Below, piece by piece: positions 8,050 to 35,662 of a stretch of 36,045 nucleotides of DNA (position 1 is its first letter; each line of letters opens with the position of its first letter). The notes under the pieces were generated by a model that made no database searches, was not told where the DNA came from, and saw nothing but the letters and a program-made list of their open reading frames with translations. The position numbers were made by a program, and so were the translations under genes. This stretch comes from Ruminococcus sp. GTDB lineage: Bacteria > Bacillota > Clostridia > Oscillospirales > Acutalibacteraceae. Location of the stretch: positions 1 through 36,045 of the forward strand of contig JALELS010000001.1 of assembly GCA_022768065.1 (NCBI GenBank). Reading direction: 5' to 3'.

Positions 8050-8222
8050 AATTTGTGCCTTGCTTTCCCTTTGTACACGGTGCGTTGCCGCTCCGCCTTT
8101 GTGAAAAGCCTTTGATCCCCGCACTTATGGGACAAGAAGCATCCGCCGAAAACTTCGATAACTTCTTCCTCGTCACCTGTAAATTCGGCAAAGCCGATAG
8201 TGCGACATACAGGTCCGGCGCT
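8050..8222 (-). ncRNA. glmS self-cleaving ribozyme / riboswitch
   Basis: The leader of glmS carries the conserved glmS ribozyme core. The cleavage-site word AGCGCC puts the cut between minus-strand bases 8222 and 8221. A P2 region follows with CCTGTA/TACAGG closing and a CGGCTTTGCCG hairpin. Then come the signature words GACGAGG, TTATCGAAGTTTTCGG and CGGATGC. In known members glucosamine-6-phosphate is the cofactor for self-cleavage, and the cleaved mRNA is degraded, so GlmS product turns off its own synthesis. The 3' limit near 8050 is approximate. I recognised it from conserved words; no covariance search was run. Confidence 0.93.
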
Positions 8223-8312
8223 AAAACTCTCTTGCGGAAAGTCCTTTAAAAAACAAAAATCTCCTTTCGCTTTTTTGAGGGCGGCTCGCACAGCCGACGG
8301 CTCATTTGTTAA

Positions 8313-15630: not shown

Positions 15631-15637
15631 AAAAAGC

Positions 15638-15663
15638 ACCCCCGCATAACTATATGCGAGGGT
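15638..15663 (-). promoter_or_regulatory. Hairpin overlapping a ribosome binding site
   Basis: CGCATA pairs with TATGCG around a four-base loop, extended by CCC/GGG after one mismatch. On the minus strand its 3' arm contains the GGGGGTG ribosome site of the next gene, with TTTTT between hairpin and ATG. It could act as a terminator for the S41 gene, a translational lid for the downstream gene, or both. Confidence 0.6.
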
Positions 15664-15684
15664 TTTGTTTTTAATGTTTATTGT

Positions 15685-16905: not shown

Positions 16906-16932
16906 ACGAACGCCTCTCTTTCGGGGGTTTTA

Positions 16933-18144: not shown

Positions 18145-18187
18145 AATAAAAAGAACTCCTTTAATACCGGATTTACCCCTTTACAAA

Positions 18188-21442: not shown

Positions 21443-21530
21443 TTAGAACATACCTCTGCTTTTCACAATATTCCCACCGCTGACTCTGCCGTAAATCGAA
21501 AATGCCGACCGACAGAGACACTAAACAACC

Positions 21531-21581
21531 GCTATAAAAATATAGGCGGTAAAATGAGTATAGTCACTCATAATACCGCCT
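21531..21581 (-). terminator. Terminator between the regulator gene and ftsE
   Basis: The hairpin AGGCGGTA...TACCGCCT (16 near-continuous pairs, 21544-21581) is followed by ATATTTTT on the minus strand. It should end the transcript of the 21719-22804 gene. Confidence 0.7.
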
Positions 21582-21584
21582 GTA

Positions 21585-21612
21585 ATTATAACATAAAACG
21601 TCAAGTTTGTAA
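21585..21612 (-). promoter_or_regulatory. Promoter-like site directly upstream of the terminator hairpin
   Basis: The minus strand reads TTACAA, 16 bases, TATAAT. Transcription would start just at the hairpin 21544-21581, so this would either make a very short RNA or act as an ftsE promoter with an attenuator. Confidence 0.45.
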
Positions 21613-21718
21613 CCATTTTGTAATATGGTAAATTATATTCGTGCAGTTTAAACAAAAACTTATATACAAACTTGTATGTCTTGACAAATCGCAGTAGTAT
21701 ACGGCAAATTTACCGTTT

Positions 21719-22804
21719 TTAATACTTAACCGGATTTGAATCGAGATATTTCTTAACCATAAGAGCTACTTTAAATACTATTGCGTCGTCGAACTCACGA
21801 AGGTCAAGGCCTGTGAGCTTTTTAATCTTTTCAAGACGATATACAAGAGTATTTCTGTGTACAAAGAGCTTCCTTGAGGTTTCGGATACGTTGAGGTTGT
21901 TTTCAAAGAACTTCTGAATGGTGAAGAGCGTTTCCTGATCGAGGTTGTCGATAGAGCCGCGCTTGAAAACTTCTTTTAAGAACATATCGCAAAGCGTTGT
22001 GGGAAGCTGATAGATAAGTCTCGCGATACCGAGGTTATCATAGCTGACAATGCTCTTTTCGGTGTCGAACACCTTGCCGACTTCAAGAGAAACCTGAGCC
22101 TCTCTGAAAGAGCGCGCAAGATCTTTTATTCCCTCAACGGTAGTGCCTATACCGACAAGAACATGAGAATAGAACTCCGTTCCGAGACCGTCGGCTATCG
22201 AGCGGGCAAGCTTTTCGAGATCCTTTGTATCGATATTGGGCTTAACTTCTTTAATAAGGGCAATATCGGTCTCGTTAAGGTTTATTACGAAATCCTTGGT
22301 CTTATCCGGGAACAGGTTTTGAATTATATCATAAGCGGAAATATCTATGTGCTCGGTGATTCTGATAAGAATTACGACACGTGACACGTCATTGTTAAAA
22401 TGAAGCTCTCTCGCTTTGAGATAAATATCGCCCGGCAGTATGTTGTCAAGAATTACGTTCTTGATAAAGTTTGCGCGGTCGTATTTTTCGTCATAATACT
22501 GCTTAATGCTTGAAAGGGTTACGGCGAGCATTGAGAGATATTTCATGGCAAGATCGTCGTCGCCCGAAACAAATACGGCATATTCGGGGTGCATACGCGC
22601 ACCGAACGGCTTATAAGAATAGCCGTCTACCGATATAACATCCGAACCGCTGAAAACGGCGGTAACTTCGGTTGAGAGCACCTCCCCTATCTTACCGAGC
22701 TCGCTGCAGGAAATAATGGTACCCGACTCGTCTATAACACCTATAGTACGATCAATGCTGTCGGTAAGCTGATGCACAATACCCTGGAACAATCTGTTCG
22801 ACAT
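21719..22804 (-). CDS. CdaR/PucR-type transcriptional regulator
   Basis: A 361-residue DNA-binding regulator. The N-terminal part resembles a small sensory domain (TIGVIDESGTIISCS), the middle a GGDEF-like CdaR region (VLVGIGTTVEGIKDLARSFREAQVSLEV), and the C-terminus the PucR helix-turn-helix (LNVSETSRKLFVHRNTLVYRLEKIKKLTG). Proteins of this type sense sugar acids, purine catabolites or amino acids; no clue to the effector is visible, and no catabolic gene lies beside it. The start at 22804 is chosen because GGAGG lies nine bases upstream; an ATG 15 bases earlier contains that site. It has its own promoter and terminator. Confidence 0.9.
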   Translation of the reverse strand: MSNRLFQGIVHQLTDSIDRTIGVIDESGTIISCSELGKIGEVLSTEVTAVFSGSDVISVDGYSYKPFGARMHPEYAVFVSGDDDLAMKYLSMLAVTLSSIKQYYDEKYDRANFIKNVILDNILPGDIYLKARELHFNNDVSRVVILIRITEHIDISAYDIIQNLFPDKTKDFVINLNETDIALIKEVKPNIDTKDLEKLARSIADGLGTEFYSHVLVGIGTTVEGIKDLARSFREAQVSLEVGKVFDTEKSIVSYDNLGIARLIYQLPTTLCDMFLKEVFKRGSIDNLDQETLFTIQKFFENNLNVSETSRKLFVHRNTLVYRLEKIKKLTGLDLREFDDAIVFKVALMVKKYLDSNPVKY

Positions 22805-23184
22805 TGATAAAACCTCCATCTATCTTCTTTTTCTCCGGCGAAAACCGCTCTGCCGCACGCCGATAAAAGCCGAAACGACAGTACGAATTCTCCCGTCTGC
22901 ATTTTTATACAATTTCACAATTCATATATTATGTATTTTACACAATCTTTTAAGATTTTGCAAGCTAAAAATTGATATTTTAAAAATTTAGTTTGCATTT
23001 TTCACAAAAATTGTTTTTCATTTTGTAAAATCGGTTAGATAAAGGCTTTTTAATACGCTTTTTTGTCGGTTTTTGCATTGTTGAAAATGACTATGCGCAA
23101 AATGCCGAAGCCGTTGACGTGCCGCCGTTTGATGACACTTTTTTTCGATGTGTCCGTTATTTTGAGTCGATAATAATCGCAGCC
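22805..23184. other. Intergenic region upstream of the CdaR-like gene
   Basis: It contains the promoter at 22935-22963 and a leader of about 125 bases. The remaining A+T-rich part, about 22970-23184, shows no supported gene; open frames there have no ribosome site. Confidence 0.6.
22935..22963 (-). promoter_or_regulatory. Promoter of the CdaR-like gene
   Basis: The minus strand reads TTGCAA, 17 bases, TAAAAT. The spacer contains the palindrome AATCTTAAAAGATT, a possible operator. Confidence 0.75.
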
Positions 23185-23709
23185 TTACCTGCCGGCATTG
23201 CACTTTGAGCAAACGCTGTAACCGTTATTGAGATACGAGGAAAGCTCCGAGGCGGAAATTTCTTTTTTGTTTTCCGAGGATGTCCTTAAAGCATATGAGC
23301 ATGACGGAGAGTGTATTTTTTTGGTATTCACGTTCACTGTATAGGTGCCCTTAGAGGGTTGTGCGTCGGCAGAGCTCTTTTGTGAATTGCCGCCGGCGGA
23401 AGGCGAGGTCGAAGCACGCCCTGCGGCAGAGGAAGCCGCCGCAGTCTCTGTTTCGGCTTTTGCCGTCGTATCTGATTCGCTCTCGGCCTCTGCCGCCTTG
23501 GTCACAAGATAAAATCCGTCTTTTTCGTCTGTGTTTTTCGGCGAATTTTCAGATGACGCAATATTGCCGTATTCCTTCAGCAAAATATGATCCTTATACC
23601 GCAGCACAAGGGACACGGCGGAAAACACCGTACACAAAACGGCGCAAACGGTAATTACGGCTGTCATAATTTTAAACCCGCGTTTTGCGCTTTTCTCTTG
23701 GTTATTCAT
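23185..23709 (-). CDS. Membrane-anchored protein with Ada-type zinc-binding motif
   Basis: A 174-residue protein with one membrane helix (about 15-38), a disordered Ala/Ser/Thr/Glu-rich stretch (about 70-120) and a compact C-terminal motif: NVNTKKIHSPSC, then about 30 residues, then GYSVCSKCNAG. This His/Cys...CxxC pattern is like the Ada-type zinc-binding tail found at the end of ComEC-like and secreted nuclease proteins; here no nuclease domain is attached. The start at 23709 is preferred because GGGGGA lies seven bases upstream, while the ATG at 23715 is too close. It follows the PBP gene by 80 bases. Function unknown; it probably faces the cell surface. Confidence 0.78.
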   Translation of the reverse strand: MNNQEKSAKRGFKIMTAVITVCAVLCTVFSAVSLVLRYKDHILLKEYGNIASSENSPKNTDEKDGFYLVTKAAEAESESDTTAKAETETAAASSAAGRASTSPSAGGNSQKSSADAQPSKGTYTVNVNTKKIHSPSCSYALRTSSENKKEISASELSSYLNNGYSVCSKCNAGR

Positions 23710-23769
23710 ATTCATTCCCCCAATACATTATGGGAAAATGATAACATCACAGAGCCGAAAATAAAGCTT

Positions 23770-23788
23770 TTGTGCCGAATTAGCACAA
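23770..23788 (-). terminator. Possible weak terminator after the PBP gene
   Basis: The six-base stem TTGTGC / GCACAA has a loose tail (AAGCTTTATTTTC) on the minus strand. Probably only partial. Confidence 0.35.
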
Positions 23789-23789
23789 G

Positions 23790-25385
23790 TTATCTTTTAA
23801 TTCCGTCGGCAATGTATTTAAACACGGGGGCGCAGTCCAAAGCGCCTCCCGCTCCGTTTTCTTTAAAAACGGTGATGACATAGCGCGGTGAATCATACGG
23901 AAAAAATCCGCAAAACCACGAATGCGTCACTTCGTTCCCGCTCTCGTCAAACCATCCGCTTTGCGCCGTTGCCGTTTTGCCTGCGGCGTCCGAATACTCG
24001 GTTTCCGCCCTTTTTCCGCTGCCCGACACCACAGTCTCACGTAAAAGCCCGGTGACGGTTTTTGCCGTATCGACGCTCATTACGCGCCTCGGAACGGGCA
24101 ACGCGGCTTTTTTGATTTCCTTTCCGTTCCCGTCTATTACGGCTTTCATAAGAGAGGGCGCGCGATACACTCCGTTATTTGCCACAGCCGCATATACGGC
24201 GGACATTTGCAGCGGCGAAGCGAGCAATTTACCCTGACCGAATGCGAGATTGCACAAATCCGCCTCAGAAATCAGGCTGTCGGCTGACGGCATAATGCCG
24301 GGCTTTGTCTCCCAGCCGTCCGCAAGCTCGATTTTTTGACCGAGCCCGAGATTTTCACCCATGGCGCAAATGCTTTCCTTGCCCGTTTTAAGCGCGAGAT
24401 TTATAAAATACGGATTACATGACTCCGCCATAGCCGAATACATATTCATATTTCCGTGACCGGTCTTTTTGAAGCAGCCGAACGAAATATCGCCGTTCAG
24501 GATATATTTTCCGGTGCATACAAAGCTGAGATCGGTCGGTATACCGTCTTGTACGGCGGCGCAGGCGACAACCGCCTTAAAAACGGAGCCTACGGAGTAC
24601 GGAGTTACCGCCCTGTTTAAAAACGGCGAAGACGGGTCATCGAGACTTTTTTCGGGTGCGTTTCGGTCGAACGACGGTGCGCTCGCCATTGCCCTTATTT
24701 CGGAAGTGGCGCTGTCGAGAACGACAATCGCTCCGCGGTCGATACCGAATTCCCCGAGAGCCGATTCGCACAGCTTTTGTATGTCTCTGTCGACGGTAAG
24801 CTCCACTCCGCCCGCCGACATATACCCGTCCTTTAAAAATGTAATCTCCGCACCCTCAAGCAATTTTCCCGAAGCCGCTGCACCGCACCTTGCCTTCAGA
24901 GTTCCCGAATACGACAGAAGTATATCGTTGTAACACTTTTCGATTCCCGAAACGCCGTTTCCGTCGCCGTCGACATACCCAGTTATATGCGGTGCGAGAC
25001 TGTTTTCTCCGTACCGCACCGCAGTTTTTGCCGTCTTGATGTTTTTTTCGTCAAAAACCGCATTTGACGCGCAAACCGCAATTTTCCCCTGAGACAAAGT
25101 CGCGTAAACAGACGGTATTTCGTTTTCGGGGACGATGGTTTCAAGAGACAAAAGAGACTCCTCGCACGGCTTTATTGCCGCCGTCAGAACGGTATCGCAG
25201 TTGACTATCTGCCGCATATTGCAGTCATAAATATTGCCTCTTGACGAAGCCACCGTTACGCCAACGGTATTTTTCGACGCGGCGACATCGGACACATTGC
25301 CGCCGCAAAGCCCTGCCATTTTTACAAAAAGCACGCCGAACGACAGACACAGCAAAAAGAAAAGGGCACAAATACGCTTGCTCAT
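23790..25385 (-). CDS. Class B penicillin-binding protein (transpeptidase)
   Basis: A 531-residue peptidoglycan transpeptidase with an N-terminal anchor (about 5-24), a short pedestal (SSRGNIYDCN, GVSGIEKCYND) and a transpeptidase domain. The active-site motifs are SVFK (Ser267, Lys270) and SCN (Ser322-Asn324). The third motif reads KTA at 470-472 instead of the usual KTG. It has no PASTA domain and is close to the small SpoVD/PBP2-like or PbpA type; whether it serves division, elongation or sporulation cannot be told. Twelve or so cysteines is a high count for an exported protein. GAGGTG lies before the ATG. A terminator ends only about 17 bases upstream, so expression probably needs read-through or a promoter inside the U32 gene. 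Confidence 0.92.
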   Translation of the reverse strand: MSKRICALFFLLCLSFGVLFVKMAGLCGGNVSDVAASKNTVGVTVASSRGNIYDCNMRQIVNCDTVLTAAIKPCEESLLSLETIVPENEIPSVYATLSQGKIAVCASNAVFDEKNIKTAKTAVRYGENSLAPHITGYVDGDGNGVSGIEKCYNDILLSYSGTLKARCGAAASGKLLEGAEITFLKDGYMSAGGVELTVDRDIQKLCESALGEFGIDRGAIVVLDSATSEIRAMASAPSFDRNAPEKSLDDPSSPFLNRAVTPYSVGSVFKAVVACAAVQDGIPTDLSFVCTGKYILNGDISFGCFKKTGHGNMNMYSAMAESCNPYFINLALKTGKESICAMGENLGLGQKIELADGWETKPGIMPSADSLISEADLCNLAFGQGKLLASPLQMSAVYAAVANNGVYRAPSLMKAVIDGNGKEIKKAALPVPRRVMSVDTAKTVTGLLRETVVSGSGKRAETEYSDAAGKTATAQSGWFDESGNEVTHSWFCGFFPYDSPRYVITVFKENGAGGALDCAPVFKYIADGIKR

Positions 25386-25443
25386 AATTCACCTCAAAAA
25401 ACAAAAAACGCTCCCGTTCTATTATTGAACGGAAGCGCGTGTT
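25386..25443 (-). terminator. Terminator between the U32 gene and the PBP gene
   Basis: The 11-base stem CGCTTCCGTTC / GAACGGGAGCG (25409-25437) is followed on the minus strand by TTTTTTGTTTTTTG, which leads straight into the GAGGTG ribosome site of the PBP gene. No promoter fits between the T-run and the ATG. Confidence 0.8.
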
Positions 25444-26673
25444 TTATTTCGTATTTTGTTTTCTGAGAATTGTTCCGGGGGCAAATTTCAAATCGGAGCG
25501 TATTTTAAATTTCATCATAGCCCGCGGCGTGCTGTCTATGGGCTCGCCGTTCTCGTCAAAGAGCTCCTCCGCCGTAAATGTTTGCGGCTTTTTGCCCGGC
25601 TCAAGGCTCTCAAGCAAATCTCCCTTAAAAAATTTGTTGCGCTGTTCGCAGTAAATAAAGCCGTCACTGCAATTTTCGACCACCGCCGTAACATCCCATT
25701 CGCGGCGGTAACCGCCCTCAAAACTGATATTCGCTTTTTCGTGCGGCGAATCAAAATAGAAGCCCGTGCAGTAATCGCGATAGCTCACCTTGCGCACTTC
25801 GTCAAGTATCCACTCGGGTAAAACGAAGCTGCCCGACTCGCTGCTCATATAAGTGTCAATTGCCGCTCTGTAAGCATTTGTTATAACCGCCGTATAATAC
25901 GCGGATTTTGCTCTGCCCTCTATTTTAAAGCTGTCGATTCCGGCATCTATAAGCTCCGGAATGTGTTCTATCATACACATATCCTCGGAGTTTAATATAT
26001 ATGTGCCGTCCTCTTCTTCGTTTACCGGGAAATATCTGCCCTCGCGCGTTTTTTCCATAAGCGCATACTGCCAGCGGCACGGCTGAGCGCATTCGCCGCG
26101 GTTTGCGTCGCGACCGGTCAGATAGTTTGACAAAAGGCATCTGCCCGAAAATGACATACACATACTGCCGTGCACAAAGCACTCGATTTGCAGCTCTTTC
26201 GGGGTTTTGGCTCTTATCTCGGCAATCTCCGACAGAGAGAGCTCGCGTGCCGTAACTATTCGCTCGGCGCCCATATTGTAAAACTCGTTTGCCGTGAGGT
26301 AATTTACTATGCCCGCCTGCGTGGAAACGTGCAGCGGTACCGACGGTGCATACTTCTTGCAATATGCCATAGTGCCTATATCGGCTGCAATATACGCGTC
26401 CACCCCTGCATTTGCCGTCATCTCTATAAAGCCCGGCAAAAGCGGTATCTCGCTGTTTCGCGGAAGCGTATTCAGCGTGAGATAAATTTTAACTCCCTTT
26501 TCATGCGCTTTTTTTACCGCCTTTATAAGATCCTCTTCGGGGAAATTTTGCGGACCTGCGCGCATACCGAATGAACTGCCGGCAAGGTAGACGGCGTCCG
26601 CTCCGAAGCGCAAGGCCGCCTCAAAGCGTTCAAAATCGCCTGCCGGACTTAGTAATTCGGGTCGTCTTTTCAT
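25444..26673 (-). CDS. trhP: U32 family protein, probable tRNA U34 hydroxylation factor TrhP
   Basis: A 409-residue U32 family protein. The N-terminal RRPELLSPAGDFERFEAALRF leads into a barrel with the GADAVYLAGSSF stretch, and the U32 signature ECFVHGSMCMSFSGRC is followed by RGECAQPCRW, conserved cysteines that may hold an iron-sulfur cluster. Characterised relatives (E. coli TrhP/YegQ; B. subtilis YrrN and YrrO) act in prephenate-dependent 5-hydroxylation of U34 in tRNA; older annotations call them collagenase-like peptidases. GAGGAG lies five bases before the ATG. mltG is directly upstream, as yrrL is near yrrNO in Bacillus. Only one copy is seen here, so it may cover both Bacillus roles. 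Confidence 0.85.
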   Translation of the reverse strand: MKRRPELLSPAGDFERFEAALRFGADAVYLAGSSFGMRAGPQNFPEEDLIKAVKKAHEKGVKIYLTLNTLPRNSEIPLLPGFIEMTANAGVDAYIAADIGTMAYCKKYAPSVPLHVSTQAGIVNYLTANEFYNMGAERIVTARELSLSEIAEIRAKTPKELQIECFVHGSMCMSFSGRCLLSNYLTGRDANRGECAQPCRWQYALMEKTREGRYFPVNEEEDGTYILNSEDMCMIEHIPELIDAGIDSFKIEGRAKSAYYTAVITNAYRAAIDTYMSSESGSFVLPEWILDEVRKVSYRDYCTGFYFDSPHEKANISFEGGYRREWDVTAVVENCSDGFIYCEQRNKFFKGDLLESLEPGKKPQTFTAEELFDENGEPIDSTPRAMMKFKIRSDLKFAPGTILRKQNTK

Positions 26674-26690
26674 ATTGCTCCTCTGGTAAA

Positions 26691-28313
26691 TTACTGCGAA
26701 GCCGATTTTGCCGCTTTTTGGTTGGCCTGGAGTATGGCAATGTTATTTGCCTGACGCTCCGAATCGTTTTTCGCAAGATAAATCTTCTTATTGTTGTCGT
26801 GTGCGAAGAAGTAGTAATCGGTCTTTGCGGGATTCAGCGCCGCGTTTATTGAGTCGTCTCCGGGGTTACAGATAGCGCCCACGGGCAGACCCTCGCACTT
26901 ATACGTACTGTAACGCGAGGTATAGGAAGCGAGTTCCGTAGCGTTTGTAACATTCTTCGCAATATAATCGTTGATATAATCCGCCGTGGAGTCGCACTGA
27001 AGCGACGGATAAAGCCCCGGCTTATTGAGACGATTGTGAAGTACCGACGATACAAGCGGCATCTGCGTCGCATCGGCAGCCTCTTTTTCTATAATGGAGG
27101 CAAGCTTTATTATATCGTCAACCGACATATTGAGCGCATCGGCTTTTTTCTGATAATCGTCCGTCCACTTTTTTTGGAAGTTGTTGAGGAAAGTCCTTAT
27201 AACACTCGAGGCGTTTTCACCCTTATAGAAATCATACGTGTCGGGGTAAAGATAGCCCTCAAGGCTCCTGTAACGCTGCTCTTTATTCGGTTCATTCTTA
27301 ATGAAGGTGTATTCGCTGCTGAAGTCCACCTCTCTCATGGCTTTATAGATGGCATCGGCGGAGCAAACCTCGTATTTTTCGAGCTTTTCGACTATCTGAT
27401 CCACCGTATAGCCCTCGGGGAACGAAAGCCGCACGGTTTCGCCCGTGGACGGAGGTGATTTAAAGGTCGAAAGCATTTTTTCAACGCCCATCGACTTTGT
27501 TATATAGTAAATACCCGACATATAGTTGTCGTCGCGGTATTTCATTACCTTTGCAAACATCTTGCAAAAATGCTTGTGCTTTATAAGCCCGTTGTCTTTT
27601 AATATATTTATAACGTCGCTCGTGTTGGTCTCGGCGGGGATTGTAACGGACACAACATTTTCGCTGTCGCGGCGTATTGCCAAAACGTCGTTCATACAGC
27701 TTATGAGATACGACGACAGACAAATTGCGCATACAACGCAAACAGCTATTGTTATCCACGTTTTTTTGTTCCTTACAAAATACGCGGCAATTCTTACGGC
27801 AATTTCTTTTTCGTTGCCCTTTATCCCTTTTATCGGTGGTCTTTTATGAGCGGCGCCCTGTCTTGCGTTTTCCGTTTCCGGCATATATCCGCGTGACGTA
27901 TTGCCGAAAGACGCGGCATTTCCGCCGTTTCTGCCGCCGCGCGTAATTATCGGTCCGAATTCATCGTCGTAGCTTATGCCGCGCTGCGCCGTACCGGTTT
28001 TTTCGGGCGGTCTTTTATGAATCTTGTGCTTTTCTGTCGGCCTTTTGTGAGCATTGTGAGCGTTATGCATTTCCGGAACATCGGCACTGTGATGCACGGG
28101 CATATCGCGTCTGACAGGCGGTCTTTTTTGCGGAGCGTCGGTAAACTCGGAGTCAAGGTCTTTTATTTCGAGCTTAAAGGGCTTTTTGCCGCTCTTACGG
28201 TTTCTTTCAACCATATTTTTGAGTTCGGGTCTTTTCTGCTCGTCTTCCTCACGCGCATAAATATCCAAAAGGTCTTTATACGAATCCTCCGGAGATCTTT
28301 TATTGTCATCCAT
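26691..28313 (-). CDS. mltG: Endolytic murein transglycosylase MltG with long cytoplasmic N-terminus
   Basis: Cuts nascent glycan strands and is thought to set their length. The start at 28313 (AAAGGAGG upstream) gives 540 residues, well above the E. coli 340. The first 185 residues are basic and disordered, with repeated KRPP-type words (KRPPVRRD, HKRPTEKH, HKRPPEKT, HKRPPIKG). A membrane helix follows (about 187-210), a LysM-like region, and the YceG domain. In that domain are LEGYLYPDTYDFYKG, IIKLASIIEKEA with the catalytic Glu, LQCDSTADY and GLPVGAICNPGDDSINAALNP. It starts 17 bases after the folate-ligase gene. The long tail may bind cytoplasmic elongation or division proteins, as in some Firmicutes; inference. 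Confidence 0.94.
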   Translation of the reverse strand: MDDNKRSPEDSYKDLLDIYAREEDEQKRPELKNMVERNRKSGKKPFKLEIKDLDSEFTDAPQKRPPVRRDMPVHHSADVPEMHNAHNAHKRPTEKHKIHKRPPEKTGTAQRGISYDDEFGPIITRGGRNGGNAASFGNTSRGYMPETENARQGAAHKRPPIKGIKGNEKEIAVRIAAYFVRNKKTWITIAVCVVCAICLSSYLISCMNDVLAIRRDSENVVSVTIPAETNTSDVINILKDNGLIKHKHFCKMFAKVMKYRDDNYMSGIYYITKSMGVEKMLSTFKSPPSTGETVRLSFPEGYTVDQIVEKLEKYEVCSADAIYKAMREVDFSSEYTFIKNEPNKEQRYRSLEGYLYPDTYDFYKGENASSVIRTFLNNFQKKWTDDYQKKADALNMSVDDIIKLASIIEKEAADATQMPLVSSVLHNRLNKPGLYPSLQCDSTADYINDYIAKNVTNATELASYTSRYSTYKCEGLPVGAICNPGDDSINAALNPAKTDYYFFAHDNNKKIYLAKNDSERQANNIAILQANQKAAKSASQ

Positions 28314-28330
28314 GGGCGCTCCTCCTTTCA

Positions 28331-28903
28331 TTAAACTCTGTGTACTGTCTTATCCGAAACGATTATGTCGGATTTAATATCATAGCTGTCGTGCGGAATT
28401 CTTCCGACTATCTGCTCTTCATAAGCAAGGCCTATTTTGGTGCCCGAAAACGATTTTAAAAACCTGTCGTAGTAGCCTTTGCCGAAGCCTACGCGGTATC
28501 CGTCCTCGGAGAACACAAGAGCCGGCACTATACATATACCGCCGTCAAACGAGGTCATAATTTCACATGACGGGTTCGGCTCCATTATGCCGAATGCCCC
28601 GGGTTCAAGGTCAAAAACCGAGTCTATACGGCAAAACTCCATATGCCCGAAAGCGTCAAGGCATCTCGGCACGGCAACGGTTTTGCCCGAAAGCACCGCC
28701 TGTTTAATTATACACGATGTGTCAACCTCGCGTGAAGACGACACATAGCACAAAACGGTTTTCGCATTTTTAAATTCGCTGAGAGCAAACAGGTTGTCCG
28801 TAACGAATTTATCAAGTCTCGCCTTTTCTTCCGGCAGAAGCGACTCTCTGTACTCTTTGGCGCGTCTTCTTAAATACGCTTTATCCTCACTTTGAGCCGT
28901 CAT
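28331..28903 (-). CDS. 5-formyltetrahydrofolate cyclo-ligase
   Basis: Converts 5-formyl-THF to 5,10-methenyl-THF with ATP, recycling a stored folate. It has 190 residues, the standard size. LRRRAKEYRESLLPEE opens the family, and GYRVGFGKGYYDRFL is the ATP/Mg-binding motif. VPALVFSEDG precedes it and the substrate loop with Glu is earlier. The start at 28903 is chosen because it begins just after the DJ-1 gene stop (overlapping SD AGCGAGTGA, rather weak); the longer reading adds 19 basic, Cys-rich residues unlike the family. It belongs to the tmk-to-trhP run and connects to ThyX and FolC metabolically. Confidence 0.94.
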   Translation of the reverse strand: MTAQSEDKAYLRRRAKEYRESLLPEEKARLDKFVTDNLFALSEFKNAKTVLCYVSSSREVDTSCIIKQAVLSGKTVAVPRCLDAFGHMEFCRIDSVFDLEPGAFGIMEPNPSCEIMTSFDGGICIVPALVFSEDGYRVGFGKGYYDRFLKSFSGTKIGLAYEEQIVGRIPHDSYDIKSDIIVSDKTVHRV

Positions 28904-28908
28904 TTTTA

Positions 28909-29451
28909 TCACTCGCTTTGAACAGATGATTTTATGTTTTCGGCAACATCGCTGCCGCAAAGCGCCTCGGCTATTTTAAGCCCGAATTCGAGAGCCACAC
29001 CCATTCCGCGTGCGGTTACTATGTTTCCGTCACGCTCTACGGGAGCGCCCGTGGCAACAGCGCCGTAAAGGTCTTTTTCAAATCCGGGGAAGCAGGTTGC
29101 GGTTTTGCCGCTTAACAGATTTTTATGACCGAGCACCGACGGTGCCGCGCAAATAGCACAGATAAGCTTTCCGTCTTTTGAAGCGCGGTCGATAAATTCA
29201 TTTACCTTTTCCGACTTTTCAAGATTTAAAGTGCCCGGCATACCGCCCGGCAAAACAACCGCCTCAATATCGTCGCCCGGAAGCACCTGTGAAGTGTCGG
29301 CGTCGCAGGTAATCGCGATATTGTGGGACGAAACTATTGTTTTTTTACCGACGCCTACAACCTTAACGTCTTTTTTCGCCCTTCTGAGCACATCGACAGG
29401 GGTGAGAGCTTCTATCTCTTCACAGCCGTCCGCAAGAAAAACATAAATCAT
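28909..29451 (-). CDS. DJ-1/PfpI family protein
   Basis: A 180-residue class I glutamine-amidotransferase-like protein. The start MIYVFLADGCEEIEALTP matches the family, with Glu14 in the usual conserved position. Cys101 in the nucleophile elbow ICAICAAPSVLG is the reactive cysteine, and VTARGMGVALEFGLKI closes the fold. Bacterial relatives act as chaperone-like or glyoxalase/deglycase proteins; the precise role is disputed in the field. The ATG at 29451 is chosen on homology and a GGCGG site; a TTG at 29481 touches its AAAGGA site. Six-base inverted repeats (GCCGCA/TGCGGC) sit between them and could modulate start use. Confidence 0.9.
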   Translation of the reverse strand: MIYVFLADGCEEIEALTPVDVLRRAKKDVKVVGVGKKTIVSSHNIAITCDADTSQVLPGDDIEAVVLPGGMPGTLNLEKSEKVNEFIDRASKDGKLICAICAAPSVLGHKNLLSGKTATCFPGFEKDLYGAVATGAPVERDGNIVTARGMGVALEFGLKIAEALCGSDVAENIKSSVQSE

Positions 29452-29497
29452 TTTTTGTACCGCCGCACGGGAATGCGGCAATCCTTTCTTTAAGTCT

Positions 29498-30331
29498 TCA
29501 GTTCAGCGTTATCCCTATATACACGCTGTCCTCTATCTTCTCGCCTTTGATATTTTTTATCATACCTACGGCGGTGCGTTTGCAATTTTTTAATTCGGCG
29601 GCTTTTTCCTCGGGCACAGAGACAAAAAACGTATTTTCGCCCGTTTTTTTCAAAACGTCCAAGGCGTTTTCATATGTTCCGCCGCAGAGAAGCTCCGTAA
29701 CAAAAACGCCGTTTTCAGCCGGACTGTACGAGACATAAAAATCGTCTCCGAAAACTATTTTGCCGTCGTCGCCGAGGAAATCCGAAAACAGTTTTATTTC
29801 GTTTTCTCGCCACACTACGCGGTTTACGTTTTTTAAAAGCTCTTCTCTTTTAAGAGCCGCCTTTTTTATATCCGACGGCGCCGCGCCTTTTATATCGAGA
29901 GGCTCACCGCCGATCAATTTTAAGACGGTTTTTTCGGCATAGACGGCTTTATAAAAGCCGAATTTTTCGTAGTAATCAAAAAGGTGCTCCGTCGCCGGAA
30001 CCAAAAACAGATAATCCGATTTTCTGTCGGCGGCAAGCGAAGCGGCAAACTTCAGCACCGAACCCATTATGCCGCGTTTTCTGTATTTTTTTGCGGTGGC
30101 GGCGGCGTAAATATAGTACGCCGAATATCCTTTTCCCGCGATTGAAAGCTTTTCCGGAAGCAAAAACAGCTGAGACACAACTTCCTGCCCCTCGGTACAG
30201 ATAACCGCATTTTCATAAGAAAAGCTGTTTTTGAAAAACATATCAATCGTTTCATTATCGTCGCCGAAGCACTCCTGCCACAGCGAATACATCTTTTTCT
30301 TGTATTTCGGTGAAGAAAGCCGAATATCCAT
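29498..30331 (-). CDS. GNAT family N-acetyltransferase, two-domain
   Basis: A 277-residue acetyltransferase. The first 140 residues are a GNAT fold: AAATAKKYRKRGIMGSVLKFA is the acetyl-CoA loop (RxxGxxG/S type) and HLFDYYEKFGFYKA is the late motif. The second half resembles a degenerate repeat or Eis-like C-terminal domain. The substrate is unknown. AAGGGA lies six bases before the ATG, and the gene follows the DUF2156 gene by three bases, so they are cotranscribed and perhaps functionally paired. Confidence 0.86.
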   Translation of the reverse strand: MDIRLSSPKYKKKMYSLWQECFGDDNETIDMFFKNSFSYENAVICTEGQEVVSQLFLLPEKLSIAGKGYSAYYIYAAATAKKYRKRGIMGSVLKFAASLAADRKSDYLFLVPATEHLFDYYEKFGFYKAVYAEKTVLKLIGGEPLDIKGAAPSDIKKAALKREELLKNVNRVVWRENEIKLFSDFLGDDGKIVFGDDFYVSYSPAENGVFVTELLCGGTYENALDVLKKTGENTFFVSVPEEKAAELKNCKRTAVGMIKNIKGEKIEDSVYIGITLN

Positions 30332-30334
30332 AAC

Positions 30335-31225
30335 TTATCCCTTATAAAAAGCGCGGTACTTTTGAAGAAGTATCTCGGGGTAATACGAGAGCTTTGCCTT
30401 ACGAAGGCCCTCGCTGCCCGTGTCGTCCTCGCGGTTTATAAATTTATAGTTTGCAAGCATATTCGCCGCAAATTCGCGGTTTACAGTGGGGTAAGCTCCG
30501 CGAACCGAAGCATACGCTTTTTCTATATGTGTGCAAAAAGCCGAGCTGTTCAGCTCTTCGCCGAGAGTGTAAGCCACAACCTCGCCGTCGGCATATAAAA
30601 CTCCGCCTTTGAACCCGAGCTCGTCAAAATTCGAGAACGCACGTTTTATGGCTTCAAGCTCGTTATCTATTTCATCCGGGTCCTTTTCACGGTTTAAAGA
30701 CTCCCATTTTTTGTTCATTTCAAGGCAGGATTCCATATTGCCGTCGTTTATCGGTTCAAAATGCCAATCGTGATTATTTTTAAAGTAAGATATATGGTTA
30801 CGCTTACCGTGGTATTTTCTTCCGGCAAGGTCAATAAGATCGGTGGTATTGTAAATGTAATCGGCAAATTCCCGCATCTCGGTAAATTCAAACTTCCCGG
30901 GCATCATATCTTCAAGCTCACGGACATTTGACGGAGTGAGGCAGTACATGGTAAGACGCGCACCGTCGTGATTTTCGGCATAACGTATAAGCTCGTTTAC
31001 GGCGGCCTTTTTATCGCCGTCGCCGCACGGGTAAAGATACATCGGATCGCCTATACCGTCGCGTGCCAAAAACATACCGTCATACTCGCAAATCGTATTT
31101 TCATACACAGGCGCCCATATATAAAGGTTGCCGAAGCAGTACTCGCAGGCCATATCGCCCGAACGTTCCATTACACTGCTCACCCAAGCCCTGTCCGATA
31201 ATTCGGGTTTTCTGAATTCAAGCAA
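30335..31225 (-). CDS. DUF2156 (LPG-synthase C-terminal-like) protein
   Basis: A 296-residue soluble protein resembling the acyl-transferase domain of phosphatidylglycerol lysyltransferases (MprF C-terminal region, PF09924), itself a double GNAT fold. Supportive words are KYHGKRNHISYFKNNH, VLYADGEVVAYTLGEEL and LRKAKLSYYPEILL. It has no membrane domain, so it is not a complete MprF. Such stand-alone proteins may transfer amino acids from aminoacyl-tRNA to an unknown acceptor. The TTG start is supported by AGGAGA seven bases upstream. It follows tmk by two bases. Confidence 0.85.
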   Translation of the reverse strand: MLEFRKPELSDRAWVSSVMERSGDMACEYCFGNLYIWAPVYENTICEYDGMFLARDGIGDPMYLYPCGDGDKKAAVNELIRYAENHDGARLTMYCLTPSNVRELEDMMPGKFEFTEMREFADYIYNTTDLIDLAGRKYHGKRNHISYFKNNHDWHFEPINDGNMESCLEMNKKWESLNREKDPDEIDNELEAIKRAFSNFDELGFKGGVLYADGEVVAYTLGEELNSSAFCTHIEKAYASVRGAYPTVNREFAANMLANYKFINREDDTGSEGLRKAKLSYYPEILLQKYRAFYKG

Positions 31226-31227
31226 AA

Positions 31228-31905
31228 TTATTCTCCTAAACCAAGTTCTTTTTTTACTATATCCAATATTTCTTCGCTTATATCGGCTATTGGACGCGGC
31301 TCACCGTTTTCGGAGCAGACCACGGTCTCCCAGCCCATTTTTTCCGCGGCAAATGCCGCCGCTTTTGCACAGCGACGCAAATACTCGACATTTGCCTCGT
31401 GGACATCTTTTTTCACCTCGTCGCCGCCGTAGCGCTTTGTCATAAGGCGCTGTGACACGTCGACGGGCATGTCAAGATATATAATCTTGTCGGGCTTCGG
31501 CACGGCAAGCTTTACGTATTCGTAATCGCAGAGCCATTTAATGTAGTCGCCCCACTCGCTCTGCGGCAGTTTTACCGCCTGATGAACGGCGTTCGACGAA
31601 GTATATCTGTCGGCTAAAATGACCTTGCCCGAAAAATAATCCTCTTTCCAATGACGGCTGTAGCTCGCATAGCGGTCCACCGCATAAAACGAGGACGCCG
31701 CATAAACGTTGACGCACGACGGGTCATTTCCGAATTCTCCGCCGAGATACATTCTGACAAGCGTGCTTGACGGGTCGTCGTAATCTGGCAGTTTAATTCT
31801 TTTTGTATCGATTGAAAGAGCGGCAAGTTTTTTCTGAAGAAGCTCCGTTTGAGTCGATTTACCGCTTCCGTCAAGACCCTCAATAACTATAAGTTTGCCG
31901 GACAT
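31228..31905 (-). CDS. tmk: Thymidylate kinase
   Basis: Phosphorylates dTMP to dTDP. The P-loop GLDGSGKST is at residues 10-18, DRYTSSNAVHQ is the DRY motif near residue 98, and LDMPVDVSQRLMTKR is the lid region. The 225 residues are slightly long because of inserts around the lid (GGDEVKKDVHE). GGGG lies nine bases before the ATG. First gene of a run ending with trhP. It is divergent from thyX, whose product dTMP is its substrate. Confidence 0.95.
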   Translation of the reverse strand: MSGKLIVIEGLDGSGKSTQTELLQKKLAALSIDTKRIKLPDYDDPSSTLVRMYLGGEFGNDPSCVNVYAASSFYAVDRYASYSRHWKEDYFSGKVILADRYTSSNAVHQAVKLPQSEWGDYIKWLCDYEYVKLAVPKPDKIIYLDMPVDVSQRLMTKRYGGDEVKKDVHEANVEYLRRCAKAAAFAAEKMGWETVVCSENGEPRPIADISEEILDIVKKELGLGE

Positions 31906-31939
31906 ACCTTTTACCCCTTTTACATATCTAATCTAAATT

Positions 31940-31968
31940 ATTATAGCAAACAATTACATTTTTTACAA
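31940..31968 (-). promoter_or_regulatory. Promoter of the tmk-to-trhP run
   Basis: The minus strand reads TTGTAA, 17 bases, TATAAT, about 28 bases before the leader's ribosome site. Confidence 0.8.
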
Positions 31969-31991
31969 CAAAAAATGCACAATATTCCAAA

Positions 31992-32020
31992 TTGCTTAAA
32001 CCGATATAATGTGATAAAAT
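31992..32020 (+). promoter_or_regulatory. thyX promoter
   Basis: TTGCTT, 17 bases, TAAAAT. Its -35 box lies about 24 bases from the -35 box of the tmk promoter, so one protein bound here could control both. Confidence 0.75.
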
Positions 32021-32054
32021 ATTACAAAATATCAAAAAGGGGCATACGCACAAA

Positions 32055-33431
32055 ATGGATCTTGATAATTTGGATTTGAATAAAAGCGGAGCATTCATAA
32101 TAGGTCTTTCGGACTGCGGCGAAAAAGTAACCTCCGCCGGCGGCAGAGTATCTACGCAGGAGGGCACCGCACTCGGCATATGGCAAAAATCGCAGGACTG
32201 CGAAAAAAACGCAAAGCTTATTGACAAGGTTACGCGCTCCGGCCACAATTCGGTAGTGGAGCATACATATTTTAATCTCGCATTTCAGAATGTCACGGCG
32301 GTTGTCGAGCAATTCGTCATTGAATTCAGACTCGCTTCATTCACCGTAAAATCACGCAGATATGTTGATTTTTCCGACGCGGGATTTTTTGTTCCCGAGG
32401 ATGCGGACGAAAACTACAAAAGCCATATGTCAAAGCTTTTCGGTCTGTACAGTGAATTCTGCGAAGCCGGCGTACCCAAAGAGGACGCGAGATTCCTTTT
32501 GCCGTACTGCCTTTTTTCCAACTTCTTTTGCAGCATAAACGGGCGTGAATTTTTGCACTTGTTAAAAGCCATGCTCTACGGCAGAGGCAGCAAATACCCC
32601 GAGATAGTAAAGCTCGGACGCGAATTAAAAGAACAGGCGGAAAAGCTCACTCCCGGCATAATGACGGGCTTTGACGAGCGCAGCAAAAACTATATGCCGG
32701 ATAACCCCGACCTCTCGTTTGTCGGTGTTGTTTCGCGCCGCACAAACGGAAAAAAAGTCGAACTTCTATCATATACGGGCGACGCCGAAAAAAATGTTCA
32801 GAGAAGCGCGCTCATTTCTTACACCAACGCTTCAACCGAGGATATAGACCGCATTTTATCGGACAGCGCGGTTGCCGACAAAATAACCTACAGCCTTGTG
32901 CACTCTTCAAGACCGAGAGCGCTTGAAGCCGCAGACTTTACTCTTCGTTTTAACGACGTTTCGCTCTCCGGAATAACTCACTTCACACGTCACAGAATGC
33001 AGAGCATAGAAATTCCCGAGCTTACAAGAGCCAACAGAAAGAAACACATCGTCCCCGAATCGGTCAAAAAAGACCCGGAGCTGCTTCTTAAATACGAAAA
33101 CACATTTAAAGAAAATGCCGCCGAATACGAGAGACTTCGCGCTCTCGGCAAGAGCGAAGAAAGCCTCGTATACTATCTTCTCAGCGGCAACACACTCGAT
33201 ATAGTCACAACCATGAACGCCCGCGAATTACTGACATTTATGAAACTGCGCACCTGCTCACGAGCTCAGTGGGAAATCAGAGCGCACGCGGTAGAGGCTC
33301 TCGAGCTTTTGAGAAAAGCCGCTCCGGGGATTTTCAAATACTACGGCCCGAGCTGCTTTATTTCATCTTGCCCCGAGGGCAGATTCTGCTGCGGCAGACA
33401 GGAAGAAATGCGTAAAACATTTTCAATGTAA
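32055..33431 (+). CDS. thyX: Flavin-dependent thymidylate synthase, tandem two-domain fusion
   Basis: Makes dTMP from dUMP with methylene-THF, FAD and NADPH. Normal ThyX has about 220 residues; this protein has 458 and reads as two ThyX units. The first half has SGHNSVVEH (63-70) and the SFTVKSRRY segment (95-103), but the RHR motif reads EFR and the AQ.EIR element is lost. The second half has FTRHRMQS (RHR 312-314), MNARELLTFMKLR and AQWEIRAHA (404-411), but its EH position reads EA and the Q/S-RRY segment is altered. The last 30 residues hold five cysteines. AAGGGG lies 13 bases before the ATG, a long gap. A terminator follows. Fused ThyX forms may be known in related bacteria. Confidence 0.92.
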   Translation: MDLDNLDLNKSGAFIIGLSDCGEKVTSAGGRVSTQEGTALGIWQKSQDCEKNAKLIDKVTRSGHNSVVEHTYFNLAFQNVTAVVEQFVIEFRLASFTVKSRRYVDFSDAGFFVPEDADENYKSHMSKLFGLYSEFCEAGVPKEDARFLLPYCLFSNFFCSINGREFLHLLKAMLYGRGSKYPEIVKLGRELKEQAEKLTPGIMTGFDERSKNYMPDNPDLSFVGVVSRRTNGKKVELLSYTGDAEKNVQRSALISYTNASTEDIDRILSDSAVADKITYSLVHSSRPRALEAADFTLRFNDVSLSGITHFTRHRMQSIEIPELTRANRKKHIVPESVKKDPELLLKYENTFKENAAEYERLRALGKSEESLVYYLLSGNTLDIVTTMNARELLTFMKLRTCSRAQWEIRAHAVEALELLRKAAPGIFKYYGPSCFISSCPEGRFCCGRQEEMRKTFSM

Positions 33432-33441
33432 AATAAAAATG

Positions 33442-33478
33442 CCGAAGCCTTGCAAATCAAAGCTTCGGTGTTTTTTTG
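33442..33478 (+). terminator. thyX terminator, shared with the convergent gene
   Basis: The stem CCGAAGC / GCTTCGG has a 13-base loop and seven Ts on plus. On minus it is followed by TTTTTATTTTAC, so it probably ends both converging transcripts. Confidence 0.75.
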
Positions 33479-33996
33479 AGCAATTTTTCCCTCTCCCTGT
33501 AATCGGGCATATACTTTTCCACGAGGGCGTAAAACCTTGCCGAATGGTTCTTTTCCTTAATGTGCGCAAGCTCGTGCACAACAACGTAGTCGACGGCTTC
33601 CGGCGGATAAAGCATAAGCCTGTATGAAAAGCATATTGAATTTTTACCGCTGCACGAACCGAATCTTGTCGCGGCGGAGGTTATTTTAACGCTTGTAGGG
33701 TAAAGACCCATTTTCTCGCTGTAATATTCTACGCGGCGCGGCAATTCCGCGGCGGCAAGCGCGCGAAGCTCCGACACTCTCTTTTCGTCAAGTGTTTTTT
33801 CAAGAGAAAGACGGCTCTTTTGCTTTTCTATATGCTCATTTATCCATTTTTCATGTGATAAAACAAAGTCGTCTATCGTTTTTTTGGGGCAGCCGACAGG
33901 CGCCTTTACGCTTACTTTTAAATCCTTTGTCACGGTGAGCGACAGAGTTTTTCTTTTTGACCTTTTCAACTCATAATCTGTTTTCATAAAGTTCAT
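33457..33996 (-). CDS. YgjP-like (DUF45) metallopeptidase-type protein
   Basis: A 179-residue protein with the DUF45/WLM-type zinc motif HELAHIKEKNHSARF: two His, Glu and a third His three residues past Asn. TRFGSCSGKNSICFSYRL upstream is the second hallmark of YgjP proteins. No signal peptide, so it is cytoplasmic. The substrate is unknown; E. coli YgjP lies beside DNA-repair-related genes but has no firm role. The ATG at 33996 has no clear ribosome site; another ATG lies nine bases later. It is convergent with thyX and divergent from the bile salt hydrolase gene. Confidence 0.9.
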   Translation of the reverse strand: MNFMKTDYELKRSKRKTLSLTVTKDLKVSVKAPVGCPKKTIDDFVLSHEKWINEHIEKQKSRLSLEKTLDEKRVSELRALAAAELPRRVEYYSEKMGLYPTSVKITSAATRFGSCSGKNSICFSYRLMLYPPEAVDYVVVHELAHIKEKNHSARFYALVEKYMPDYREREKLLKKTPKL

Positions 33997-34053
33997 AATA
34001 TTAAAACAATTATAATTTATATTTTAAGTGTTCCGTTTTTTCGGGCAAACATA

Positions 34054-34081
34054 AGTATAGCATTTTCTCTGTAAAAATCAA
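34054..34081 (-). promoter_or_regulatory. Promoter of the YgjP-like gene
   Basis: The minus strand reads TTGATT, 16 bases, TATACT, about 58 bases before the start codon. Confidence 0.6.
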
Positions 34082-34101
34082 ATATATCGGGAGGACTTAA
34101 T

Positions 34102-35076
34102 ATGTGTACCGCAGCAACATACAAAACAAACGATTTTTATTTCGGCCGCACGCTCGACTATGAATTTTCATACGGAGACGAAATTACCGTGACGCCGCGA
34201 AATTATCCTTTTAACTTTAAATTCACGGAGTCTCTCGGCAGTCACTACGCCATAATAGGTATGGCTTATGTTTTTGACAATTATCCGCTCTACTACGACG
34301 CGGTCAATGAAAAGGGACTTGCGGCGGCAGGTCTTAATTTTGTAGGCAACGCCTGCTATAATTCGGAGCAAAGCGGCAAATACAATGTGGCGCAATTTGA
34401 ATTTATACCGTGGCTCTTATGCAGGTGCGGCAATATAAAAGAGGCGAAAGAGCTGCTCACAAACGCGAATATCACAAACACGCCGTTTAACGAATCGCTC
34501 CCTGCCGCACAGCTTCATTGGATAATAGCCGACAAGAACGGCTGCATAACCGTTGAATCGGTAAAAGACGGCATTAAAATATATGAAAATCCCGTAGGGG
34601 TTCTTACAAACAATCCGCCGTTTGATATGCAGCTTCAAAATTTAAACAACTATATGAGCCTCAGCGCAGCCGACCCCAAAAACACATTTGCTCCCGATAT
34701 GAACCTCACGACTTATTCGCGCGGTATGGGCGCGCTCGGACTTCCCGGAGATCTCTCTTCGCAGTCGAGGTTTGTCAGAGCGGCGTTTGTCAAAGCGAAC
34801 TCCGTTTCGGAAAATACCGAAGAAAAAAGCGTAAGTCAGTTTTTCCATATTCTCAATTCGGTAAGCCAGCCGAGGGGTTGCTGCAAGCTTGAAAGCGGCA
34901 AATATGAAATCACGATTTACACATCATGCTGCAATACGGATAAGGGAATTTATTATTACACAACGTATGACAATCATCAAATTTCGGCTGTTGATATGCA
35001 CCGCGAAAATCTCGATTCTTCCGCTTTGATACGTTATTCGCCCGTAAAAGACGAGCAGATAAATTTTCAGAACTGA
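34102..35076 (+). CDS. bsh: Choloylglycine hydrolase (bile salt hydrolase type)
   Basis: An Ntn-hydrolase of 324 residues, the usual size, which cuts the glycine or taurine amide of conjugated bile acids. Cys2 (MCTAA) becomes the N-terminal nucleophile once Met is removed. The other active-site residues are in place: Arg16 and Asp19 (GRTLDYE), Asn79 (AGLNF), Asn170 or 171 (GVLTNNPPF) and Arg223 (SSQSRFVRA). No signal peptide, so it acts inside the cell, as Gram-positive enzymes do. Penicillin V acylase is the main alternative within the family. GGGAGG lies eight bases before the ATG. A terminator follows and no bile-acid transporter is adjacent. It strongly suggests an intestinal host habitat. 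Confidence 0.93.
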   Translation: MCTAATYKTNDFYFGRTLDYEFSYGDEITVTPRNYPFNFKFTESLGSHYAIIGMAYVFDNYPLYYDAVNEKGLAAAGLNFVGNACYNSEQSGKYNVAQFEFIPWLLCRCGNIKEAKELLTNANITNTPFNESLPAAQLHWIIADKNGCITVESVKDGIKIYENPVGVLTNNPPFDMQLQNLNNYMSLSAADPKNTFAPDMNLTTYSRGMGALGLPGDLSSQSRFVRAAFVKANSVSENTEEKSVSQFFHILNSVSQPRGCCKLESGKYEITIYTSCCNTDKGIYYYTTYDNHQISAVDMHRENLDSSALIRYSPVKDEQINFQN

Positions 35077-35089
35077 AAAATTACAAAGT

Positions 35090-35127
35090 GCGGCGGCTCC
35101 TATTTTGAGATGTCCGCCGCCTTTTTT
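35090..35127 (+). terminator. Bile salt hydrolase terminator
   Basis: The stem GCGGCGG / CCGCCGC encloses a 17-base loop and is followed by six Ts. Confidence 0.75.
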
Positions 35128-35314
35128 AATCGCAATAAAACGGGAATATACAAAAAGCGCATTATTTTTTCTTTCCCTGTAAACACACTCCTCGGTGTAA
35201 AATTTTATTCGCGACGGATATTAAACCGACCGTATAAAGCTAAACCATATCCCCCCGACGGGCTACGCAAAACCCCTGCATCTTTTCAAAAGATATAAAA
35301 TACAAATAAAACAC

Positions 35315-35343
35315 TTGACAAACGCATATAATGATAATATAAT
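35315..35343 (+). promoter_or_regulatory. Consensus promoter of initiator tRNA
   Basis: A perfect TTGACA, 17 bases, TATAAT, as expected for a strongly expressed tRNA; it ends 35 bases before the tRNA. Confidence 0.95.
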
Positions 35344-35378
35344 GGTTAGGCACTCTGAAAGAGGGCACAACTTAATAT

Positions 35379-35455
<77 letters not shown>

Positions 35456-35458
35456 TTA

Positions 35459-35487
35459 GGAACTGTCTTTTATGACAGTTCTTTTTT
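35459..35487 (+). terminator. tRNA-fMet terminator
   Basis: GAACTGTC / GACAGTTC with a short loop, then seven Ts, immediately behind the intact tRNA. Confidence 0.85.
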
Positions 35488-35662
35488 TATCCGGTTATGA
35501 GCACGATGAGCGGTGCTCGTTGGGGCGAAGCGGTATGCCGCTGCCTGTGGCAGATACAGGCGTGCCGCTGAGGTGAAGAAATAAGGAGCATTGCGACGCG
35601 CTCCAAGCGAGCATATGCGACTATATTTCTGAGGGGCAAGCAAGGCGCAGCCTTGTGAGATG
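35488..35662. other. Palindrome-rich insert between the two tRNA 3' copies
   Basis: No gene is supported. It is dense in short inverted repeats (GAGCAC/GTGCTC, AGCGG/CCGCT, GCCTG/CAGGC, GGCGCAGCC). It begins with CCGGTTATGAGC, almost the reverse complement of the tRNA anticodon arm (one G fewer). The word GCTCGTTGGGG resembles the tRNA D-to-anticodon segment GCTCGTCGGGC. It may be a decayed tRNA copy with an insertion, or a small mobile or repetitive element. Confidence 0.6.

Follow-up and report, generated by a model that had tools for sequence, protein, structure and literature searches.

ThyX is an FAD-dependent thymidylate synthase, which converts dUMP to dTMP with NADPH and CH2-THF, and an antibacterial target. 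In the published site, the FAD of subunit A contacts the RHR motif of that subunit plus a Ser and an Arg from subunit B. For dUMP, subunit A contributes the first Arg of RHR and a distal Arg, and subunit C contributes two Arg and a Ser; a Tyr of subunit C forms a lid over the site (PMC6514825). Arg-182 and Ser-88 have been placed on different monomers (PMC3498832), and H53 on 'monomer-3', hydrogen-bonded to Y91 (PMC11940539). In the numbering of Thermotoga maritima ThyX, reached from that of Mycobacterium tuberculosis by our own renumbering according to spacing from RHR, the A role comprises R78, H79, R80 and R174 (taken as the equivalent of Arg-182), the B role T55 and R165, and the C role S88, R90 and Y91; position 70 also belongs to the C role, and T. 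maritima has no Arg there. Because H53 and T55 lie on one stretch, we infer that H53 belongs to the B role as well, and R147 is presumably a ligand of the C role. The sets scored below are R78, H79, R80, R174 (A), H53, S/T55, R165 (B) and S88, R90, Y91, R147 (C). A 'duplicated ThyX' of Chloroflexi, uncharacterised, is mentioned briefly, and without residue analysis, in a passage of Valas and Bourne 2009 (PMC3224940).

The gene described here encodes two fused, diverged ThyX domains, and we consider it likely that its product is an active FAD-dependent thymidylate synthase that assembles as a two-chain pseudo-tetramer with composite sites.

The tandem gene and its two halves

The window, that is, the whole stretch of DNA analysed (36,045 nucleotides, Ruminococcus sp.), contains an open reading frame whose position, strand and length of 458 residues, as given in the first-pass annotation, were exact on recheck. 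The features of this gene, and the gene next to it, are listed below; fractions of 68 refer to the corresponding halves of the type-1 tandems introduced in the next section.

31228..31905, minus strand: thymidylate kinase-like gene, divergent from the tandem (Pfam Thymidylate_kin, 59.6 bits)
32055..33431, plus strand: tandem ThyX gene, 458 aa, ATG start, TAA stop
32121..32654, plus strand: first Thy1 domain, residues 23-200, putative B and C roles; AlphaFold2 pLDDT mostly >90
32244..32252, plus strand: His64 and Ser66, equivalent to T. maritima H53 and T55, B role (first halves: His 68/68, Ser/Thr 68/68)
32322..32330, plus strand: Glu90-Phe91-Arg92 in place of RHR, A role lost in half 1
32352..32363, plus strand: Ser100, Arg102 and Tyr103, equivalent to S88, R90 and Y91, C role kept (68/68, 68/68, 67/68)
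32490..32492, plus strand: Arg146, equivalent to R147, retained in half 1 (68/68)
32571..32573, plus strand: Met173 at the position of R174, loss of the A role from half 1 (R174 0/68)
32760..33326, plus strand: second Thy1 domain, residues 236-424, putative A role (Pfam)
32910..32918, plus strand: Arg286-Pro-Arg288 where H53 and T55 would lie, loss of the B role from half 2 (Arg at position 55, 68/68)
32988..32996, plus strand: Arg312-His313-Arg314, RHR motif intact in half 2 (68/68 each)
33249..33251, plus strand: Arg399, equivalent to R174, retained in half 2 (68/68)
33354..33395, plus strand: Cys-rich C-terminal motif, residues 434-447 (62/62 tandems, 36/38 single ThyX)

The whole protein matches Pfam Thy1 with 244.3 bits, in two stretches. 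When the halves are scored apart against PF02511 (cut-off 24.8), residues 1-229 reach 116.4 bits and residues 230-458 reach 131.6, so that both, including the first, are Thy1 domains, as had been proposed from the sequence; the two share 19% identity. The NCBIfam equivalog TIGR02170 (thyX, cut-off 87.9) is matched by the full-length protein (150.5 bits) and by neither half taken singly (87.5 and 67.6), a result that we count against an active composite enzyme. This standard thyX model thus matches the tandem without flagging its divided roles. An AlphaFold2 model of the fused chain, built from an alignment of 54 tandems taken from the larger set, has a mean pLDDT of 93.1 and a pTM of 0.89, which predicts that both halves fold and pack against each other in a defined manner. 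The best 50 of 188 Foldseek matches of this model are all ThyX structures, PDB chains among them, and the predicted fold is that of ThyX. A sequencing or frameshift artefact was ruled out, the frame being open in 17 relatives of the genus and in independent assemblies.

The first-pass annotation had suspected that each half has lost a different part of the active site, and the motifs on which it relied are as described. Half 1 keeps GHNSVVEH, carries EFRLASFTVKSRRY where the RHRxxS...S.RY segment would be, and is devoid of the AQWEI element; half 2 keeps THFTRHRMQS and NAREL...LRTCSRAQWEIR, has SSRPRALEA in place of GHxSxxEH, and carries after RHR a loop unrelated to that of usual ThyX. The losses go further than those first listed, as half 1 also lacks R174, and half 2 lacks H53, S/T55 and R147. 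The Cys-rich C-terminus, which had been thought foreign to the standard enzyme, turned out to be ordinary for clostridial ThyX, being present in nearly all of the single-domain proteins collected (see list), and we dropped it as a novelty.

Division of roles and possible assembly

We aligned the halves of 68 type-1 tandems (the window protein included) and of four tandems of a second type, described below, with 37 single ThyX proteins; three atypical single ThyX-like proteins (L128, L129, L012) were excluded from the single set, and L165 and L167 were added. All three residue sets are found in one chain in 35 of the 37 single proteins, the two failures being L165 and L167, which have His at R165 and so fail the B role. 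In the type-1 tandems, the complete A set is present in none of the first halves and in all 68 second halves, and the complete B set in all 68 first halves and in no second half; the complete C set is likewise absent from second halves (0/68) and present in 67 of 68 first halves, the exception (L097) having Glu for Y91. The A, B and C residues that contact FAD and dUMP are therefore supplied by the pooled halves only, and by neither half alone; not one half among the 72 tandems of both types carries a full catalytic set. The pattern of kept and lost residues holds in the 17 relatives of the genus, at 61-68% identity, as well as across the 68 distinct tandems.

The sets are not wholly lost from the opposite half: R80 is retained in both halves (68/68 each), R165 is also present in 62 of 68 second halves, and some H79 remain. 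First halves have Glu at the R78 position in 62 of 68 cases and never Arg, Phe at the H79 position in 64 and His in two (L160, L161), and at the R174 position Met (56), Ala (6), Leu (5) or Ser (1). RHR and S88-R90-Y91 lie at most 14 residues apart, yet they are retained in opposite halves, whereas R78 and R174, 96 residues apart, are retained together. The losses thus track structure rather than sequence blocks, and block deletion or drift would not give such a split. Several of the replaced positions are themselves conserved (E78 62/68, F79 64/68, R55 68/68), which suggests that vacant pockets have been refilled. The second-half loop after RHR aligns loosely, so that counts for its single columns, such as 25/68 for Ser at position 88, are approximate. 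Position Q75 is occupied by His in all 59 second halves aligned, which we count against the reading of an active composite enzyme. The Glu of L097 at Y91 is another such point. So is the equivalent of M. tuberculosis R87, a phosphate-binding residue of subunit C, which is Arg in 2 of 68 first halves, although T. maritima ThyX, like most first halves, lacks it too.

To account for this division, we propose that two chains would pair into a D2-like pseudo-tetramer, in which second halves would occupy positions A and D and first halves positions B and C. The second half would supply the residues of subunit A (RHR and R174), handling FAD and uracil, and the first halves would supply those of subunit B (S55, R165 and probably H53) and of subunit C (S88, R90 and the Tyr lid, Y91). 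Four domains would then form two complete and two vestigial sites, with two FAD per two chains. The first-pass annotation had proposed an obligate pseudo-dimer with fewer, composite sites. The idea of composite sites is supported, in that complementary retention matches the published subunit origins and is fixed in relatives, and in that the tandem is the only thymidylate synthase found in nearly all of its genomes; a lone pseudo-dimer is probably insufficient, for an ordinary ThyX site draws on three subunits, and two chains, a pseudo-tetramer and two sites are hence expected. The earlier interpretation is on the whole supported as largely right, its assembly needing refinement.

A single chain might be sufficient, as a monomeric pseudo-dimer whose two halves together build one site with no second chain involved. 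AlphaFold2 does pack the halves confidently within one chain (pTM 0.89), and A and C residues do sit in different halves. However, ThyX sites use three subunits (PMC6514825, PMC11940539), and since the first half houses the B as well as the C residues, two such halves would have to come together to build a complete site in the usual way; we therefore regard a self-sufficient chain as unlikely.

The open frames of the second-type tandems (L125, L126, L127 and L166) span 441-475 codons. Their proteins show 52-53% identity to L127 and, half by half, 19-25% identity to the window protein (three of the four compared). Both halves of L127 score above the Pfam Thy1 cut-off (51.4 and 62.8 bits). As in type 1, the A role lies in half 2 and the C role in half 1; unlike in type 1, the B role, H53 included, lies in half 2. 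Half 1 has the complete C set only (4/4), the H53 segment being absent, and half 2 has the complete A and B sets (4/4). Neither ThyA nor DHFR was found in the four type-2 genomes. An AlphaFold2 model of a type-2 tandem, made from four sequences, is poor (pLDDT 48.9) and uninformative. A first tree of the halves of both types joins N1 with N2 (98/91) and C1 with C2 (99/98), but the branches leading to type 2, at 6.2 and 4.8 changes per site, are too long for this to speak firmly for one fusion shared by both types.

By symmetry, a D2 tetramer in which half 1 provides B and C (type 1) would place half 2 at A and D, and one in which half 2 provides A and B (type 2) would place it at A and B. We lean slightly towards the view that these are two ways in which fused ThyX domains share one three-subunit site, half 2 acting as A and half 1 as C in both, the B role falling to half 1 in type 1 and to half 2 in type 2, with two good sites in either placement (A/D or A/B); in type 1, the FAD pockets that have gone dead may now be occupied by Arg55, invariant in second halves, and by the Glu78-Phe79 typical of first halves. 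A further tandem ThyX, L162 (genome G559, 535-codon frame), which we report apart from the 68 type-1 tandems, divides A and C as the others do and has R165 in neither half. It may be a Chloroflexi-type duplicate, and we count it against the composite type-1 enzyme proposed above.

Thymidylate synthesis in tandem genomes, distribution and history

Among 36 genomes of the genus, 20 contain the tandem, 15 contain ThyA and DHFR without ThyX, and one (G019, 86% complete) contains neither synthase. The tandem is in one frame in 19 of the 20, the second half being at a contig end in G012. ThyA was found in none of the 20 tandem genomes; DHFR was found in all 15 ThyA genomes, adjoining thyA (in G028 it is cut near a contig end), and again in none of the 20. 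The window's genome yielded neither ThyA (no match to PF00303, a family also absent among the Pfam hits of the tandem protein) nor DHFR. The genus thus alternates between two thymidylate pathways, tandem ThyX without DHFR and the ThyA-DHFR pair, with the reservation that its genomes are related and the counts therefore not phylogenetically independent.

In 38 tandem genomes from a contig scan, two of them of the genus (L040, L042), ThyA was absent from 37, the last giving one weak 53-bit match, and an extra single ThyX was present in one. ThyA was also missing from a set of seven tandem genomes (four type 1 and three type 2, out of 11 genomes searched) and from five in another set, in whose sixth genome (G552) the tandem was not confirmed; the sets of 38, 7 and 5 genomes may overlap. 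In nearly all genomes examined, the tandem is the only thymidylate synthase found.

According to a passage of PMC4177761, the product of ThyA is dihydrofolate and that of ThyX tetrahydrofolate. Since ThyX returns tetrahydrofolate, a missing DHFR is what a working ThyX would permit. In a wider set of 50 tandem genomes (two of them in the genus), seven do have DHFR, which counts against this. However, among the control genomes T. maritima has ThyX and also DHFR, and because the two coexist there, DHFR in tandem genomes is not strong counter-evidence. Judged from its sequence and from these gene contents, the tandem is probably a working ThyX in a gut bacterium.

It could be argued that the tandem is a ThyX-fold enzyme shifted to another substrate or reaction, thymidylate coming from elsewhere, for it is far from single ThyX (mean identity about 22% for half 1 and about 32% for half 2). 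Against this, ThyA is missing from nearly all tandem genomes examined, an additional single ThyX occurs in just 1 of 38, the tandem alternates with the ThyA-DHFR pair inside one genus, and one or other half retains each of the A, B and C residue sets, which makes such a shift very unlikely in our opinion. A different substrate is possibly used by some atypical ThyX-like proteins, namely L128 (G018:C3) and L129 (G048:C6), of 260-262 aa, and the additional ThyX of G474 (260 aa); L128 has RHQ for RHR, and its H53, R147 and AQW segments are altered.

Of 19 other loci examined in the genus, 18 also have the thymidylate kinase-like gene beside the tandem. In the window, a gene of the 5-formyltetrahydrofolate cyclo-ligase family (28331-28960, minus strand) lies about 3 kb from the tandem and shares the strand of the kinase-like gene. 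Elsewhere in the window are a gene of the Choloylglycine hydrolase family (bile salt hydrolase-like; 34102-35076, plus strand, 355.6 bits) and a glmS ribozyme (8052-8233, minus strand, 79.4 bits). The ThyA loci of five ThyA-bearing members of the genus share no gene order with window positions 15685-35076, the comparison giving two matches only, both in L183 and both to the gene at 20471-21442.

Scanning genome contigs with patterns of half 1 gave 57 loci, of which 55 are long tandems and two are cut by contig ends; since the patterns derive from half 1 only, the scan is not an unbiased census. The matches are mostly from records titled Clostridia, Clostridiales, Oscillospiraceae or similar, and include Lachnospiraceae bacterium 3-1, Clostridiaceae 1XD21-72 and a Coatesbacteria genome. 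Type 1 occurs in at least 5 of 391 genomes of a class-level sample and at least 7 of 398 of a phylum-level sample, and type 2 in at least 3 of the same 391; these counts, like those that follow, include the centre genome of each sample. Among relatives of the Coatesbacteria genome, at least 5 of 61 have tandems of any kind, and among relatives of G392 at least 3 of 61 have type 2. Three proteins from the former group (L160, L161, L163), counted among the 68, obey the type-1 rule, and the tandem search gave no match for L164. We excluded L087, L089 and L130 (contig ends), L091-L094 (short viral sequences), L095 and L133 (duplicates) and identical proteins, and made no use of L135.

In a tree of 19 type-1 tandems (L156 left out by the motif filter, L149 entered as a partial sequence), first halves form one clade and second halves another, in largely mirrored order; all halves together are set apart by a single, weakly supported branch (84/72). 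Pairwise distances of half 1 and half 2 are correlated at 0.94 (2278 pairs), and together with the mirrored trees this is consistent with type 1 going back to a single ancient duplication-fusion. An origin in phages was considered and rejected: a 97% protein match in a phage collection, MT835736.1, looks like mislabelled host DNA. This 'Bacteriophage sp.' record (human faecal, UNVERIFIED) is collinear over 19.5 kb with window positions 15615-35534, at 91% identity. In the scan of viral contigs, the five matches found were short and distant (22-27% identity).

Two other explanations appear highly improbable. One half could do all the catalytic work and leave a regulatory or structural part to the other, each half clearing the Pfam cut-off by itself, but the alignment, in which none of the halves of 72 tandems has all three sets, contradicts this, and several replaced positions are conserved rather than drifting (Glu78 62/68, Arg55 68/68), so that we rejected it. 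Nor do the residues missing from each half make a decaying duplicate credible, in bacteria relying on thymidine salvage, since the open frame and the residue pattern are retained down to 33% identity, across several families and beyond a single phylum.

Comparison with known ThyX enzymes

The long ThyX of Chlamydia, of about 530 aa, resembles the tandem in length, and we found nothing on it in the open-licence literature searched. Single clostridial ThyX proteins of the same order (L001-L011, part of the 37-protein single set) commonly share the Cys-rich C-terminal motif with the tandem; beyond RHR the resemblance is with half 1, and at RHR itself and the AQWEI element it is with half 2. Unlike the tandem, they are not duplicated. 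With its two Thy1 domains, the window protein agrees with the domain duplication noted in Chloroflexi. In open-licence full texts, as far as the passages retrieved go, we found no report of a ThyX active site divided between halves, and tandem ThyX is unmentioned in passages of PMC6514825, PMC8316439, PMC5954106, PMC9931769 and PMC10733785.

In ordinary ThyX, each site mixes three identical subunits, so that no residue can be altered in one role alone. In the tandems, these roles are divided over two covalently joined domains, a separation maintained in more than one phylum. Such a protein would allow FAD binding, uracil activation and the folate and lid functions to be assigned per domain, and would allow sites to be counted, thereby testing whether two suffice. 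It offers a clear case in which a symmetric homo-oligomer has become, through duplication, fusion and complementary loss, a probable obligate pseudo-hetero-oligomer.

A standard ThyX has one domain of about 220 aa with a complete residue set; with two domains, 458 aa and divided sets, the window protein is instead a variant of the family. It shares with the enzymes of T. maritima (TM0449) and M. tuberculosis the fold, the Thy1 domain and, in its pooled halves, the A, B and C residues, except for the R87 equivalent. Those enzymes are built from four identical single-domain subunits and have four equal sites, whereas in the window tandem the residue sets are divided between two halves.
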